From Peptococcaceae bacterium (GTDB lineage Bacteria > Bacillota > Desulfotomaculia > Desulfotomaculales > JACDOK01), in contig JACDOK010000017.1 in the NCBI GenBank assembly GCA_017656185.1, forward strand, positions 1-49,507: a stretch of 49,507 bases of DNA. Reading direction: 5' to 3'. Made by a program: the position numbers and the translations under genes. Shown in pieces: positions 2,590 to 35,401 of the stretch. Numbering within the stretch: the first letter of the stretch is position 1; every line of letters begins with the position of its first letter. The notes below the pieces were generated by a model. It had not been told where the DNA came from. It was given only the letters and a program-made list of their open reading frames with translations, and searched no databases.

Positions 2590-3966
2590 TTATTGATTGC
2601 CTGCCGCGGCCTCAGTTTGCCCGTGCTTTTTCCACCAGATCTCGTCGGCCACTTTGCCCCATTCTTCCGATCTCTTATCCAAGAACGCCCCGATTTCTCC
2701 GCCGAGCACCGTTTCGGCTCCTTCGTGCGTCGGATTCGCTCCCGACTCCGCTACAATGGCGCGGAGCGCCTCCGGGTTGTCAATGATGGGGCACGGCCGC
2801 AGGAGATTTTCGTTGAACGGCTGGCGCTTTTGATATGCCGTGAATAGAGGCGATTTCAGACACTCCACAAGACTCTTCTCCTTGATGTTATCCAAAGAGA
2901 AGTGGACAAAGGCGCAGGGTTCCACTTGCCCGGCGGCTGTAATGTGAAAATACTTGCGCCCTCCGGCAATGCATCCCCCGGTAAGTTCTCCGTCATTCCA
3001 AAAGTCGGCAATTTGAATAAGTTTATGAGTACGGATATAGCGGATACGGTCGATCAAATAGGCCCGCTGCTCGGGCAGAAGCATAAGGTCGGGGTCGGGA
3101 TTACGCCCTATCGGGATATAGTGGAAGGTCCAACCGTAACGGACCCCTTTATCCACCAGGAAGTCAATAAATTCATCACTGGTGACTTCATACACGTTGT
3201 GGCGGGTAATCGTGATCGAACAGCCAAAAATGGCCCCGCGTTCACGCAGTAGATCCATAGCCCGCATAATCTTATCAAAAACACCTTCACCACGGCGGTT
3301 GTCCGTGGCCTCGCGCCAGCCTTCGATGCTGATGGCAGGTGTAAAGTTCCCCACTTCAACAATGCGGTCGGCCATTTTCTCGTTGATCATAGTGCCGTTC
3401 GTGTAGGCCATAAAGGCCATATCGTGGTGTTTCTCACAGAGTTCCATCAACCGGGGATAAATCAGGGGCTCCCCGCCCGACATTACCACCCAATAAATGC
3501 CAAGCCGCTTTGCCTCCGTCAGAATCCGGTCCAACGTCTCAAATTCCAGAGTATCGCTCTTCTTGTATTTACCGGCCCAGCAGCCCTTACACTGTAAGTT
3601 GCACGCACTGGTAGGATCGAGCAGTATAAAATTGGGAATGTGTACGCCTAACTCCCGGCCTATTTGCTCCTGTTTAGGGATACCGAAAATCATAGCGTTG
3701 ACAAACCAGTTGAAAACCAAGCGATCTTTCACATTTTGATGCGTGTTCTCAAACAGGTCGTTGATATAAGCACGAATTACCGGGTTATTCTCGTAGGCAT
3801 CCAAAATCTTGACGGCGTGGCTTTGATGGTGTTCCTTCAGGGCGAAACGCCTGACCAAAAAGCAAATTTGGCCAAGGTTCTGCTCGGGATTCTTACCCAC
3901 GTAATGCATTAACTGTCTTAACACTTGTTCACCGACAAACCGCTTGGCAAACGAAAGATCCGGCAT
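2590..3966 (-). CDS. Radical SAM protein with SPASM-like C-terminus
   Basis: 458 residues from the ATG chosen because GGGAGGTGGGG lies just upstream; a longer frame starts 19 codons earlier without such a site. About 100 N-terminal residues of helical, unassigned sequence precede the radical SAM core, which has the cluster motif CNLQCKGC (CX3CX2C) near residue 120, the GGEP motif (SGGEPLIYP) near 160, and barrel strands. The C-terminal third has further cysteines (GGCIAGG, EPCAFVHFS, RPCPII) like the auxiliary-cluster SPASM/twitch region of peptide-modifying and anaerobic-maturation enzymes. No precursor peptide or target enzyme is adjacent, so the substrate is unknown. A terminator follows at 2533-2559. 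Confidence 0.85.
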   Translation of the reverse strand: MPDLSFAKRFVGEQVLRQLMHYVGKNPEQNLGQICFLVRRFALKEHHQSHAVKILDAYENNPVIRAYINDLFENTHQNVKDRLVFNWFVNAMIFGIPKQEQIGRELGVHIPNFILLDPTSACNLQCKGCWAGKYKKSDTLEFETLDRILTEAKRLGIYWVVMSGGEPLIYPRLMELCEKHHDMAFMAYTNGTMINEKMADRIVEVGNFTPAISIEGWREATDNRRGEGVFDKIMRAMDLLRERGAIFGCSITITRHNVYEVTSDEFIDFLVDKGVRYGWTFHYIPIGRNPDPDLMLLPEQRAYLIDRIRYIRTHKLIQIADFWNDGELTGGCIAGGRKYFHITAAGQVEPCAFVHFSLDNIKEKSLVECLKSPLFTAYQKRQPFNENLLRPCPIIDNPEALRAIVAESGANPTHEGAETVLGGEIGAFLDKRSEEWGKVADEIWWKKHGQTEAAAGNQ

Positions 3967-27533: not shown

Positions 27534-27802
27534 ACCCTTTTCCCTCTCTCAAAAAAAGTTATATTTTGTGTATTACTATGATACACCTGTTTTTCCTGTC
27601 TGTGCAGTGTTAAACCCCAAACTTTTATCACGAACATATACCGCTGATACAGCATACGATCCGGGTCAACCAAATTATAGCCCGTTATGGGTTAGTTATT
27701 ATGAAGGTGAATACATCTCGTGGCACGAACTATTTTTAGCCGGGACAGAATCGTTCTTTAGCATCCATAACTCTGAGCTTGTTTCAAGGGGTGATAAAGC
27801 AA

Positions 27803-28225
27803 GTGGATATCTTAGCACTGGTCAGAGACAGGGTGCACCATTATTACTGGGAACACGAATATAACTGAGCCACCGTGGTCCTAAAGATCCTCGGTGAGGT
27901 CTTCAACGTCGATATTCACCCTCAGGTTTACGACTGTGCCGTCGGGATGCATGGCGCCGGGCAGTACGGCGCCCAGTGCGGCTTGGTGGAAGGAGCCCTC
28001 ATGTTTCTGGGCCTGCGTTATGCCCAACAAAAAGGGGCCGAGAAAACCGCCGCGCTGTGCAAACAACTGGCGACCAACTTTGAAAGGCGGTTCGGTTCCT
28101 TGCTGTGCCGCGAACTGCGCCCGGAAGGGTTTAAAAAAGATAACCCGCCGCACCTCTGCGAACCCCGCACGGTGGAAGCCGTCCTTTTTCATATTGAGTT
28201 TATCACCAATCTGGAAAACAGGTGA
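27803..28225 (+). CDS. C_GCAxxG_C_C family redox protein, probable selenoprotein (TGA = Sec22)
   Basis: 140 residues if the TGA at 27866-27868 is read as selenocysteine. The start is GTG 27803, with AAGGGGTGAT 7 nt upstream, a near-perfect anti-SD match that only makes sense for the frame entering the TGA. Upstream codons give VHHYYWEHEYN, and downstream ones ATVVLKILGEVF; in this family the position between them is the first conserved Cys (NCA). The other family cysteines are present: GAQCGLVEG, SLLCRELRP and PHLCE. From 27884 the message can fold as AAGA-(bulged U)-CCUC-GGU-GAGG-UCUU, with the apical GGU 24 nt past the TGA, like the bacterial SECIS. Length equals the family norm. A thiol/selenol redox role is from the family. 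Confidence 0.8.
27884..27903 (+). promoter_or_regulatory. Candidate bacterial SECIS element of the small selenoprotein
   Basis: 8-bp stem (AAGA and CCUC pairing with GAGG and UCUU) with a single bulged U at 27888 and an apical GGU triloop at 27893-27895. The bulged U four pairs below a GGU loop is the arrangement that SelB reads in the fdhF SECIS. Distance from the TGA fits the usual 16-37 nt. Confidence 0.65.
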
Positions 28226-29437: not shown

Positions 29438-29533
29438 CCACACATACTTAGTGTAACGTTAAGAAAAAACACTCATTATATCCCCGAAATGTTGGCAAAA
29501 TAAATGAGTAAGGTCTTATGTCGGAGGCCAGTT

Positions 29534-30385
29534 ATGAGTGACCAAAAACTTACGGTGGATATCCTGACGCCCGATGCGGTAACTGAAAAAGCCGAAAGTA
29601 CAGGGGTTAAGAAGGCCAAGTATCCACTCAGGACCACCGTAATGCTGGGTATTTTGGCCGGCGTCTTTATTGCCCTGGCGGGAGAATTTTATACTATGGT
29701 AGTCTTTGAGGCCCAAACGGGTTACAGCATAGCCAGGTTGTTAGGAGGCCTCGCATTTTCCCTGGGCTTGATTTTGGTCGTTATCACCGGCGCGGAATTA
29801 TTCACCGGCAACACTCTGCTGGTCATAGCCTATATGACCAAGAAAATTACCTTAAAAGATTTGCTGCGGAACTGGTTGTTAGTATATACCGGTAATTTTA
29901 TCGGCTCCATAGCCGTAGTATTGCTGGTTTATTATTCCCACCAGTGGGTCCTGAAAGAATATTCTTTCGCCGTACAAGCGGTACAAATCGGTATAGGCAA
30001 GGTTAGCAACGATTTTTTTACCGCCATGGTACGGGGTGTTTTGGCCAACACCCTGGTGGTCCTGGCAGTATGGATGAGTTACAGCGGCCGCACCTTGACG
30101 GACAAATTGCTGGCCGTAATTTTCCCCATATCGGCCTTTGTGGCTTCGGGTTTTGAACACAGCATTGCCAATATGTATTTCATCCCCATGGCTTTAATGT
30201 TAAAAGGCAACGAAGCGGTGCAACAGGCCCTGCTGGCGGCTGCTCCCCATGCGGATATTTCTCTTCTAACCGTACAAACTTTTATTACCAGGAACCTTAT
30301 CCCGGTAACCATAGGAAATATTATCGGAGGCGCTGTTTTCGTAGGTTTGGCCTATTGGTTCGTATATCTGTACAAGCGGGCCTAG
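29534..30385 (+). CDS. Formate/nitrite transporter (FNT/FocA family)
   Basis: 283 residues from the ATG with GGAGG 8 nt upstream; an earlier ATG (29504) lacks one. Six hydrophobic segments after a polar N-terminus. FNT marks: GILAGVFIALAGEFY near residue 40, ITGAELFTGNTLL near 95 (omega-loop), the GVLANTLVVLAVWMS segment near 163 and GFEHSIANMYFIP near 205 with the central His. A pentameric channel for formate. First gene of a unit with three formate dehydrogenase subunits, which points to formate over nitrite. Confidence 0.92.
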   Translation: MSDQKLTVDILTPDAVTEKAESTGVKKAKYPLRTTVMLGILAGVFIALAGEFYTMVVFEAQTGYSIARLLGGLAFSLGLILVVITGAELFTGNTLLVIAYMTKKITLKDLLRNWLLVYTGNFIGSIAVVLLVYYSHQWVLKEYSFAVQAVQIGIGKVSNDFFTAMVRGVLANTLVVLAVWMSYSGRTLTDKLLAVIFPISAFVASGFEHSIANMYFIPMALMLKGNEAVQQALLAAAPHADISLLTVQTFITRNLIPVTIGNIIGGAVFVGLAYWFVYLYKRA

Positions 30386-30406
30386 ACGGGTGGAGGGATG
30401 ATCAAA

Positions 30407-30877
30407 ATGTCTTCCGATATCGATGAATTAATAGAAAAGTACCGCCAAGCACGAGGCGGGCTCATTCCTCTGCTGCAGGAAACCCAGGAATTAAAGGGTT
30501 TTCTGTCCAGGGAAACTTTGGAGAAGATTGCATCGGGTATGAATTTATCCCTGGCCAAGGTAGTCGGGGTAGCGACCTTCTACCACCAGTTCCACCTTGA
30601 GCCCAGAGGCAAGTACATCATCAGGGTCTGCATGGGTACCGCGTGCCACGTACGCGGAGCGGCAGACATCTTGGCTGCGATGGAAAAAGAATTGGGCGTC
30701 AGGGTCGGTGATACTACCCCGGATCTGACCTTCACGTTGGAACAGGTAGCCTGTTTGGGAGCTTGCGGTTTGGCCCCGGTAATAATGATCAACGAAGACA
30801 CGCATGGCAAGCTTACTCCCGATCAAGTACCGGAGATTTTAGCCAAATACAGGCAGAAAACGGCGGTGATCCATTGA
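30407..30877 (+). CDS. NuoE-like [2Fe-2S] subunit of NAD-linked formate dehydrogenase
   Basis: 156 residues from the second ATG, which sits better behind GTGGAGGG than the one three codons earlier. An N-terminal helical bundle is followed by a thioredoxin-like [2Fe-2S] domain with cysteines in RVCMGTACH (CX4C) and ACLGACGLAP (CX3C). The HQFHLEPRGKY segment is typical of NuoE/HndA/HydA-C type subunits. It passes electrons between the flavin of the NuoF-like partner and the rest of the complex. The stop overlaps the next start as TTGA. Confidence 0.92.
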   Translation: MSSDIDELIEKYRQARGGLIPLLQETQELKGFLSRETLEKIASGMNLSLAKVVGVATFYHQFHLEPRGKYIIRVCMGTACHVRGAADILAAMEKELGVRVGDTTPDLTFTLEQVACLGACGLAPVIMINEDTHGKLTPDQVPEILAKYRQKTAVIH

Positions 30878-32754
30878 AAAGAAGTATACTTGTCTGCGGC
30901 GGAACCGGTTGTGTTTCTTCTCATTCCCGGTTAGTTCACGACGCTTTGGAAAAAGAATTAAGGACCCGGGGACTGGATAAACAATTTGAGCTGAAATATA
31001 CCGGCTGCCACGGTTTTTGTGAACAGGGGCCGATCATTACAGTTGAGCCGGAAGGGTATTTCTACTGTCAGGTTACGGATGAACACGTTCCCAAACTGGT
31101 CGACAGCCTGCGGGAAGGAAGCGTATATGAAGACCTCTTATATAAAGACCCTGAAACTCAGGAACGGGTAAAAACCAGGGACGAAGTGCCGTTCTATAAA
31201 AAGCAGAAACGGCTGGTGCTGAAAAACTGCGGCAGAATCAACCCCGAAAATATAGAAGATTATCTCAAGACCGGCGGCTACCAAACCCTAGACAAGGTGT
31301 TCAATATGCCGCCGGAAGCCGTCATCGAGGAGGTTAAAGCTTCCGGCCTGAGGGGCCGCGGTGGGGGTGGTTTCCCCACAGGGTTGAAATGGGCGTACGC
31401 GCGCGAGGCCCGGGGTGATAAGAAATATCTTATTTGCAACGCCGACGAGGGAGACCCGGGGGCTTTTATGGACCGCAGCATTTTGGAGGGCGACCCCCAC
31501 CGGGTCTTGGAAGGCATGCTCATCGCCGGTTACGCCATCGGGGCGAGCGAAGGTTTTGTTTATATCCGGGCCGAGTATCCCCTGGCGGTAAAAAGGCTGG
31601 CCATGGCCATCAGGCAGGCCCGGGAAAAAGGCTACCTGGGCAATAATATCCTGGGCAGCGGGTTTAATTTTAACATTCATATCAGCCAGGGGGCCGGCGC
31701 CTTTGTCTGCGGCGAGGAAACGGCTTTAATTGCATCCCTGCAGGGAAACCGGGGCATGCCCCGGCCACGACCGCCTTTTCCGGCAACCAAGGGCCTGTGG
31801 GACCGGCCCACTGTTGTCAACAACGTCGAAACTCTGGCCAACCTGCCGGTGATTCTCAACATGGGGGCCGGGGCCTATGCTTCCATCGGAACGAAACAGA
31901 GCAAGGGTACCAAAATCTTTGCCCTGACGGGCAAGATTAAAAATACCGGGCTGGTCGAAGTACCCATGGGCATCACTTTGAGGGAGATAATATTTGACAT
32001 CGGTGGGGGCATACGGAACGGCAAGAAATTTAAGGCCGTCCAAATCGGCGGGCCATCCGGCGGGTGTTTGGGCGAAGAACACCTGGATTTGCCCATTGAC
32101 TATGATTCACTGATTGAAGCGGGGGCCATGATGGGGTCCGGCGGCCTGGTGGTCATGGACGAAGACACCTGCATGGTCGAACTGGCCCGCTTTTTCCTTT
32201 CCTTTACCAGGATGGAGGCCTGCGGCAAGTGCACTCCCTGCCGGGAAGGAAACACCAGGCTGCTGGAAATACTGAACAGGATCGTGGAAGGCAAAGGGGA
32301 GCCGCGAGACCTGGACCTGTTGGAAACTTTGGGCCGCAATATTATTGACACTTCTCTCTGCGGCCTGGGCCAGTCGGCGCCCAACCCGGTGCTCAGTGCC
32401 TTAAGGTATTTCCGGCCCGAATACGAGATGCACGTAAAGCAAAAGATATGTCCGGCCGGTGTCTGCAAAGACCTGCTGTCTTACCGGATTATAGAAGAAA
32501 AATGCAAGGCCTGCGGCCTGTGCTTGAAACACTGTCCGGTCGGGGCCATAACCGGTGCAAAGGGGCAGCCCCACCGCATTGATCCGGAGATGTGCGAAAA
32601 ATGCGGCGAGTGTCTGAAAAAGTGTCCTTTTGGCGCCATTGTAACGGCAGGAGGTGACCGCATTGGAAAAAATAAAAATGACTATCAATGGGACCACGTA
32701 CCACGTACCCGCGAATTACACGATCTTGAAAGCGGCAGAAGAGAACGGTATTGA
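30874..32754 (+). CDS. NuoF-like NAD(P)H- and ferredoxin-linked subunit of formate dehydrogenase
   Basis: 626 residues starting at TTG 30874, which overlaps the previous stop. Domains: N-terminal thioredoxin-like [2Fe-2S] (CGGTGC near 8, TGCHGFC near 45), NuoF Rossmann core with the FMN/NADH loops GRGGGGFPTG near 155 and CNADEGDPGAFMDR near 185, SLBB domain, the NuoF [4Fe-4S] site CGKCTPC near 450, and two C-terminal ferredoxin clusters CKACGLCLKHCP and CEKCGECLKKCP. This architecture is that of the flavin subunit in electron-bifurcating hydrogenases and formate dehydrogenases. The 3' end overlaps fdhA by about 90 nt. Confidence 0.93.
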   Translation: MKRSILVCGGTGCVSSHSRLVHDALEKELRTRGLDKQFELKYTGCHGFCEQGPIITVEPEGYFYCQVTDEHVPKLVDSLREGSVYEDLLYKDPETQERVKTRDEVPFYKKQKRLVLKNCGRINPENIEDYLKTGGYQTLDKVFNMPPEAVIEEVKASGLRGRGGGGFPTGLKWAYAREARGDKKYLICNADEGDPGAFMDRSILEGDPHRVLEGMLIAGYAIGASEGFVYIRAEYPLAVKRLAMAIRQAREKGYLGNNILGSGFNFNIHISQGAGAFVCGEETALIASLQGNRGMPRPRPPFPATKGLWDRPTVVNNVETLANLPVILNMGAGAYASIGTKQSKGTKIFALTGKIKNTGLVEVPMGITLREIIFDIGGGIRNGKKFKAVQIGGPSGGCLGEEHLDLPIDYDSLIEAGAMMGSGGLVVMDEDTCMVELARFFLSFTRMEACGKCTPCREGNTRLLEILNRIVEGKGEPRDLDLLETLGRNIIDTSLCGLGQSAPNPVLSALRYFRPEYEMHVKQKICPAGVCKDLLSYRIIEEKCKACGLCLKHCPVGAITGAKGQPHRIDPEMCEKCGECLKKCPFGAIVTAGGDRIGKNKNDYQWDHVPRTRELHDLESGRRERY

Positions 32755-35401
32755 CATTCCTACGCTGTGTTATGATGAAAGGTTGACTGTTACCGGTGCC
32801 TGCCGCATGTGTGTCGTGGAAGTAAAGGGTGCTCGCAAGTTAATGGCGGCCTGTGCCACGCCGGTCAGCGACGGCATGGAAGTCTTAACCGAGTCGGACC
32901 GGGTGGTGGAAGCCCGGCGGGAAATCCTCCGGCTGCTGATCGCCAACCACGACCTGCGGTGTCTTACCTGCGAGCGCAACGGGGACTGCCGGCTGCAAGA
33001 TTACTGCTACCGGTATAAGGTGGAAGATACCCCCTATAAAGGCGCGGTCATAGAATATCCTGTTGATACCGATAACCCGTTTTTCATCCGGGATTACAGC
33101 AAGTGTATCAGGTGCGGCAAGTGCGTAACACTTTGTGCCGAAATAAACGGGGCTCACGTATATGACTTCATGCACCGCGGCTTTGACACCAAGGTTACAT
33201 CGGCATATGATGACACCCTGCAGGAAACCACCTGTACCTTTTGCGGTATGTGCATCAATGTTTGCCCGGTAGCGGCGCTGGTGGAAAAATCGACCCTTTG
33301 GGAAGGCCGGCCCTGGGAAGTGAAAAAAGTTACCACCACCTGCCCCTACTGCGGCGTAGGCTGCCAGCTCAAATTAAAAGTTAAAGACAACCGCATTATC
33401 GGGGTAACGGCAGACAGATCAGGCTCCAACCTGGGAGACCTGTGCGGCAAAGGCCAGTTCGGATGGGCGTACGTGCATTCTCCCGACAGGCTCACCGGCC
33501 CGCTGATTAAAAGGAACAGCGCATTTGTAAAGGTCAGCTGGGAAGAAGCGCTCAACTATGTGGCCGCCAGGTTCACAGACATCTTGAACCGGCGGGGCGG
33601 TCAAGCTTTCGCGGGGTTGTCTTCCGCCAAGGCCACCAACGAAGAAAACTACTTGTTCCAAAAATTTATGCGGACGGTACTGCAAACCAACAACGTAGAT
33701 CACTGCGCCCGCCTCTGACACAGTTCCACGGTTGCCGGTCTGGCAACAGCTTTTGGCAGCGGGGCAATGACTAATTCCATAAACGAAATACTGGAAACAG
33801 ATGTAATATTGGTCATCGGGTCTAACACTACCGAAGCCCATCCGGTGACAGGATACCGGATTAAACAGGCCGTGCGGAACGGTAAACAATTGATTGTGGC
33901 TGACCCCAGAAGAATTGAACTGGTCAAGTATGCCGATATATGGCTGCGGCACCGGCCGGGAACCGATATCGCCCTGTTAAATGGCCTGGCCCACGTAATT
34001 TTGCGGGATGATTTATGGGACAAGGAATTCGTAGCTGAACGATGCGAGGGGTTTGAAGAATTCGAAAAGACCGCCGCCAAATACACCCCCGAACGGGTAG
34101 CGGAAATTACCGGAGTAGATGCTGAATTAATTGAGCAGGCCGCCCACTTATACGGCGAGGCCGAAAAAGCCACCATTATCTATGCCATGGGTATTACCCA
34201 GCATACGTCAGGTACTCATAATGTAATGGCCGTGGCCAACCTGGCCATTTTGACCGGTAATGTGGGGCGGCGGGGCACGGGAGTGGCCCCCCTGCGCGGG
34301 CAAAACAACGTCCAGGGTGCTTGTGACATGGGCTGTCTGCCCAATTACTATCCTTCCTACCAGCCGGTGGAAGACCCGGCCGCCCGCAGCAAATTCGAAC
34401 GGTTCTGGCAGGTAAAACTGCCGGAAAAACCCGGCCTGACGGTAACCGAGATGACGGATGCCGCCCGGCGGGGTAAACTAAAATGTATGTACATTATGGG
34501 TGAAAATCCCGTGTTATCAGACCCGGACGGCAATCATGTGGTTGAAGCGCTGCAGAACCTGGAATTTTTGGTAGTACAGGATATATTTTTAACCGAGACG
34601 GCTCAACTGGCGGAAGTGGTGCTGCCCGCGGTCACCTTTGCCGAGAAAGACGGCACTTTTACCAATACGGAGCGCCGTATCCAGATGGTAAGAAAAGCAA
34701 TCGACACAGAGAGCAAGGCTAAACCCGACTGGCAGATCATCACAGAACTGGCGCAGAAAATGGGGCACCCCTGGCAGTACCCCGGGGGACCGGCACAAAT
34801 AATGGGGGAAATAGCTCAGTGTGCGCCCCTCTATGGCGGCATAAGCCACCAGCGGCTGGAACAAGAAGGAGGCCTGCATTGGCCCTGCCCCACACCCAGC
34901 CATCCCGGAACGCTTTACTTACACGCAGATGGTTTCGCCAGGGGCAAGGGCAGATTTCACAGCGTAGAATACCTGCCGCCGGCGGAAGAACCGGATGAGG
35001 AATACCCGCTGATCTTAACCACCGGCAGAACACTGTACCAATTCCACACAGGTACTATGAGCAGGCGTTCCCGGTTGGAGGAACTGCGGTCAGAAGAACT
35101 GGCGATGATACACCCGAAAGACGCCGAAATTTACGGTATCAGGGATAAAGATACCATATCGGTGGAGTCCAGGCGCGGTAAGGTAACGACCAAAGTCCAG
35201 GTCACCGACCAGGTACCCCCGGGGATTGTGTTTATGACTTTCCATTTCAAAGAAACCCCAACCAACGTCCTAACCATTGCGTCCACCGATCCCGTTTGCA
35301 GAATACCCGAATTGAAGGTATGCGCCGTCAGGGTGGAAAAAATTATAAGCAACCCGCCTGTTGATGAAAGGGATAACTACGTCGGAGTTTACAAACAGTG
35401 A
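32663..35401 (+). CDS. fdhA: Formate dehydrogenase catalytic subunit, selenocysteine-containing (TGA = Sec352)
   Basis: 912 residues with the TGA at 33716-33718 read as selenocysteine in VDHCARL-U-HSSTVAGL, the strict FdhA active-site motif. Start at TTG 32663, 5 nt after GGAGGTGA; GTG 32654 is an alternative inside the site. Domains: plant-type [2Fe-2S] (CYDERL..GACRMC), His-Cys cluster (CLTCERNGDC), two ferredoxin clusters (CIRCGKCVTLC, CTFCGMCINVCP), the molybdopterin-oxidoreductase [4Fe-4S] (CPYCGVGC), the bis-MGD core and a C-terminal molydopterin-binding domain. It interconverts formate and CO2 using W or Mo. With the two partners it fits an NAD- and ferredoxin-linked, probably bifurcating, enzyme. 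Confidence 0.96.
33731..33747 (+). promoter_or_regulatory. SECIS element of fdhA
   Basis: GUUGCC-GGUCU-GGCAAC hairpin 12 nt after the TGA. The GGUC apical loop on a G/C stem is nearly the fdhF SECIS of Escherichia coli. Confidence 0.85.

Follow-up and report, generated by a model that had tools for sequence, protein, structure and literature searches.

A predicted C-GCAxxG-C-C family selenoprotein with UGA at the first conserved cysteine position in a Peptococcaceae bacterium

The window analysed here, a stretch of 49,507 nucleotides from a Peptococcaceae bacterium, very probably harbors a selenoprotein gene of the C-GCAxxG-C-C family at positions 27803 to 28225 of the forward strand, with UGA codon 22 being decoded as selenocysteine (Sec). 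A previous sequence-only reading of the window had already interpreted the gene in this way. This interpretation is now supported by the family match of the read-through product, the alignment of the in-frame TGA with a conserved cysteine, a SECIS-like stem downstream of it, the sel genes of the same genome and two other members of the family in which TGA occupies the equivalent position (loci L133 and L134), from which we infer the actual insertion of Sec.

The predicted gene starts with GTG at 27803, ends with TGA and encodes 140 amino acids when the internal TGA is translated as U. A ribosome-binding site, AAGGGGTGAT, can be read in the sequence at 27786 to 27795 of the forward strand, separated by 7 nt from the GTG, which is in line with the near-perfect site reported earlier. 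From GTG 27803, the frame continues for 20 codons up to the in-frame TGA at 27866 to 27868, the proposed Sec codon of residue 22, and for another 118 codons up to the terminal TGA at 28223 to 28225 (VDILALVRDRVHHYYWEHEYN-TGA-ATVVLKILGE...). Thus, as claimed before, it leads through the TGA into the family body with only one internal stop. In the table-11 ORF list, by comparison, the start is placed at GTG 27875, and hence the N-terminus is missing without read-through, just as had been pointed out; standard gene finders clip the start because the proposed Sec codon (TGA) occupies the cysteine position of the relatives. Residues 1 to 21 nevertheless represent genuine coding sequence, for which homologues display MENVKKMIDDRVHKYYWNNDYNC, MEPIEFIQKKVKEYYWNDDINC and MEDIKFIQEKVKEYYWNDDINC, and the GTG at 27803 matches the start positions of these homologues.

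For a closer comparison, 12 distinct close homologues from two phyla were considered, comprising L002-L004 (Syntrophomonas sp., Desulfobulbaceae and Desulfocapsa) as well as nine sequences from the phylum of the window (L085-L093). They share 43-58% identity over nearly the full protein and likewise contain the upstream stretch around RVHxYYWxxDxNC together with the same start position. Opposite the TGA at 27866 to 27868, all 12 carry a cysteine codon, either TGT or TGC, which bears out the earlier statement that the TGA stands for the first conserved cysteine of the family. Cysteine is also present at this position in about 60 remoter members of the family, drawn from the same order or phylum, the exceptions being L133 and L134 with TGA.

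Membership of the read-through product in the C-GCAxxG-C-C family is indicated by scores above both curated cut-offs, with 65.9 bits against Pfam PF09719 (cut-off 27) and 51.9 bits against TIGR01909 (cut-off 47.4), and by the alignment of Sec22, Cys59, Cys102 and Cys119 with the four conserved Cys/Sec columns of the family. While G(C)xCGAxxG is common in this family, the protein of the window belongs to a rare and patchily distributed subclade with the hallmark GMHGAGxYGAQCGLVEG. Here, the CGAxxG motif takes the form CGLVEG (residues 59-64, encoded at 27977 to 27994 of the forward strand according to the alignment); alanine is replaced by leucine in all subclade members, whereas the cysteine and the first and last glycine are retained in nearly all of them. 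All other subclade members found have cysteine at the TGA position, and searches of other genomes yielded no second Sec-bearing member. Further subclade members were not found among 113 genomes searched in the class of the window, nor were relatives of the subclade found in viral contigs. Additionally, residues 17-112 match the N-terminal part of the HUGP/GUXX-star fusion selenoprotein NF045501 with 34 bits; an identity with NF045501 was rejected, as its cut-off is 325 and no GUXX-star domain is fused to the protein of the window. Separately, G000:C4:54850-55050 matches the GUXX-star portion of NF045501 and has no in-frame stop; this is perhaps a protein of the UXX-star type in its Cys form.

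The sequence-only reading had suggested searching the genome for selA, selB, selC and selD, and all of them were found. SelA (1.3e-158) is encoded next to SelB (1.2e-119), SelD is present as well (9.2e-116), and a tRNA-Sec gene (selC) is detected with 75.7 bits at a gathering threshold of 47. The selD gene (L050, G000:C4:12930-13856) has an in-frame TGA of its own (SSG-U-AAKIG). In the window, fdhA, coding for formate dehydrogenase, contains a Sec codon at 33716 to 33718 of the forward strand (VDHCARL-TGA) with a GGU-loop hairpin downstream, which serves as supporting evidence only; this second selenoprotein gene had been noted before at a distance of about 5 kb, and its TGA lies approximately 5.8 kb from the TGA at 27866. 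Considering selA, selB, selC and selD along with the TGA codons in selD and fdhA, the organism is therefore expected to decode UGA as Sec. As side observations, selD of this organism is, judged by its in-frame TGA, itself a selenoprotein gene; at positions 29504-35401 of the window, a formate transporter precedes a set for NAD-linked formate dehydrogenase (NuoE-like and NuoF-like) with a Sec-type FdhA; and a second match to the tRNA-Sec model (L038, G000:C2:36417-36507; 52.6 bits, above gathering) is perhaps a serine tRNA.

At the RNA level, UGA codon 22 would be read as Sec by SelB together with Sec-tRNA, aided by a stem-loop downstream. Such a SECIS-like stem is located at 27884 to 27903 of the forward strand and consists of AAGA, a bulged U (27888), CCUC, the loop GGU (27893-27895), GAGG and UCUU, exactly as described in the earlier reading with its bulged U, four pairs and GGU loop. 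The stem begins 15 nt past the UGA, and its loop 24 nt past it. The E. coli fdhF SECIS features a bulged U and four upper pairs. The stem of the window resembles it in these elements and shares with the fdhF and fdhA SECIS the short GGU-loop stem after the UGA; compared with fdhA of the window, where the loop follows at 18 nt and the hairpin reaches -9.1 kcal/mol, its loop lies farther from the UGA (24 nt) and its hairpin is weaker (-6.4 kcal/mol). According to the bSECIS model, a loop of 3-9 nt with G in one of its first two positions, an upper stem of at least 4 bp, a distance of 16-37 nt between loop and UGA and an energy of at most -7.5 kcal/mol are required (PMC13188914). A bSECIS search had been proposed previously. 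Compared with the model, the GGU loop, the 4+4 bp and the spacing of 24 nt satisfy the loop, stem and distance terms, but the isolated hairpin with -6.4 kcal/mol falls short of the energy limit, and the segment optimum of -14.0 kcal/mol belongs to another fold in which the UGA itself is paired.

How rare such a stem is was assessed in several ways. The strict bulged-U GGU architecture is found downstream of only 2-3 of the 1356 TGA triplets on both strands of the window; a second strict match at 3521 on the minus strand was dismissed as chance, since its frame is full of stops. Judged solely by its energy, the hairpin does not stand out, ranking 125th among these 1356 triplets. When the peptide is recoded synonymously with the codon usage of the window, 0.44% of the sequences form the stem in place and 0.59% form any bulged-U GGU stem, and the same stem test was negative for all 12 Cys homologues. 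A scan of the window against Rfam gave no matches. In the isolated 42-nt RNA, the preferred fold (-14.0 kcal/mol versus -6.4 kcal/mol for the SECIS-like stem) pairs bases of the UGA and of the nucleotides immediately 3' of it, and this fold would come apart during reading of the UGA by the ribosome. Upon removal of the first 9 nt including the UGA, the SECIS-like stem becomes the optimum fold, while after removal of 12-18 nt it is outcompeted by other local folds with energies between -7.3 and -9.3 kcal/mol. The SECIS evidence is thus supportive of the Sec reading, not decisive.

Searching the phylum with NF045501 yielded family domains with in-frame TGA, which were then read out individually. 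Two of them, both from the phylum of the window, carry TGA at the first conserved cysteine: L133 (G300:C287) with AGYS-U-AEAVFLGAREAL (AGYS-U-AEAV) and L134 (G145:C66) with NGFN-U-AESVLHGVKDVL (NGFN-U-AESV). L134 exhibits a strong hairpin of -9.7 kcal/mol with its GGU loop 18 nt past the UGA, a spacing equal to that of fdhA in the window; the hairpin of L133 is weaker and has the loop CGGGA. Although the TGA affects the same cysteine as in the gene of the window, both are distant from it and belong to another part of the family tree. Since L133 and L134 also have TGA there, Sec at the first cysteine appears to recur in the C-GCAxxG-C-C family. When 36 family members are placed in a tree, three label changes are required to account for the three rows labelled Sec, and well-supported branches force at least two of these changes, with gains and losses being indistinguishable. 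Other candidates were discarded, namely L135 (G378:C1:2043200-2044100), where the TGA lies in a non-conserved stretch (LVHYHLS-TGA-SKFRYREL) off the family cysteines, perhaps in a pseudogene, L119 and L137, where it is found at the domain end, and L136 (G218:C22:106200-107100, minus strand), which is frameshifted and still has cysteine at the first position. The latter is probably a decayed copy of the subclade of the window, and its genome also holds an intact Cys copy (L089).

With this evidence at hand, three alternatives to a selenoprotein can be weighed. The most probable of them, itself improbable, is a pseudogene, a decaying gene whose former Cys22 codon would have turned into a genuine stop. 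The same TGA indeed occurs in no close relative, and the decayed, frameshifted copy L136 in another genome illustrates that copies of the subclade do get lost, but neither the start and ribosome-binding site nor the remaining frame show any damage, and the genome has the Sec machinery as well as a fitting stem behind the TGA; moreover, a random nonsense mutation would hit this cysteine as TGA in only about one of 50 cases, counted over all single-base nonsense changes possible in the gene. Even less probable is a sequencing or assembly error in a TGC or TGT codon: although TGA is just one base away from both, the error would have to strike precisely that family cysteine which is replaced by TGA in two other genomes (L133 and L134), and this in a Sec-decoding organism and ahead of a SECIS-like stem missing from the 12 Cys homologues. 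Finally, a genuine stop at the TGA, with a 116-residue protein starting at GTG 27875 as the ORF finder lists it, is hardly credible, since the first conserved cysteine and the conserved RVHxYYWxxxYN stretch would be lost, while the ribosome-binding site precedes 27803 and the homologue starts agree with 27803.

For the selenoprotein favored here, an AlphaFold2 model (pLDDT 88.5, pTM 0.86) predicts an all-helical structure in which residues 22, 60 and 102 each begin a helix, coinciding with or adjoining Sec22, Cys59 and Cys102. In the PDB, sequence comparison gave no relative (only 3ial, E 0.095), and no entry matched the model by fold (best E 0.79). Thiols at helix starts usually have a lowered pKa, and Sec is found in place of a catalytic cysteine much more often than in place of a structural one. 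Both points fit a role of Sec22, at the start of its helix, as attacking selenolate in a thiol/selenol redox reaction, in which one of the cysteines would act as resolving partner. A redox role of this small, predicted all-helical protein is likely, the main functional alternative being metal binding by the Sec/Cys set. The neighborhood of the gene (DUF4870, two Usp, pilus-like genes and a formate transporter) offers no clear functional clue, and the gene neighborhoods of L002-L004 have nothing obvious in common with the window and suggest no function.

Sec forms of the family as such are not without precedent. The NCBIfam title of TIGR01909 reads 'C-GCAxxG-C-C family (seleno)protein', a 2026 review lists two C-GCAxxG-C-C Sec forms, MGD8741185.1 and WP_012158890.1 (PMC13188914), and C-GCAxxG-C-C selenoproteins are also listed in another review (PMC9312934). 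The remark in the sequence-only reading that the family had been flagged for Sec variants was therefore right, while its suggestion that the present form may be new holds for the subclade only. Sec in the rare GMHGAG subclade appears to be new, the two published forms being compared here by their listing. The novelty is modest and lies in the subclade and in its Sec standing apart from the L133 and L134 cases.

Read-through of the TGA mends a truncated gene call. On balance, Cys would have been replaced by Sec independently in this rare subclade, from which Sec forms had not been recorded earlier, and the gene, together with L133 and L134, would mark the first cysteine of the family as catalytic. 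Since Sec mostly replaces catalytic cysteines, its recurrence at one cysteine in separate branches points to the active residue, and it may hence give a testable handle on the chemistry of a widespread, uncharacterised protein family.
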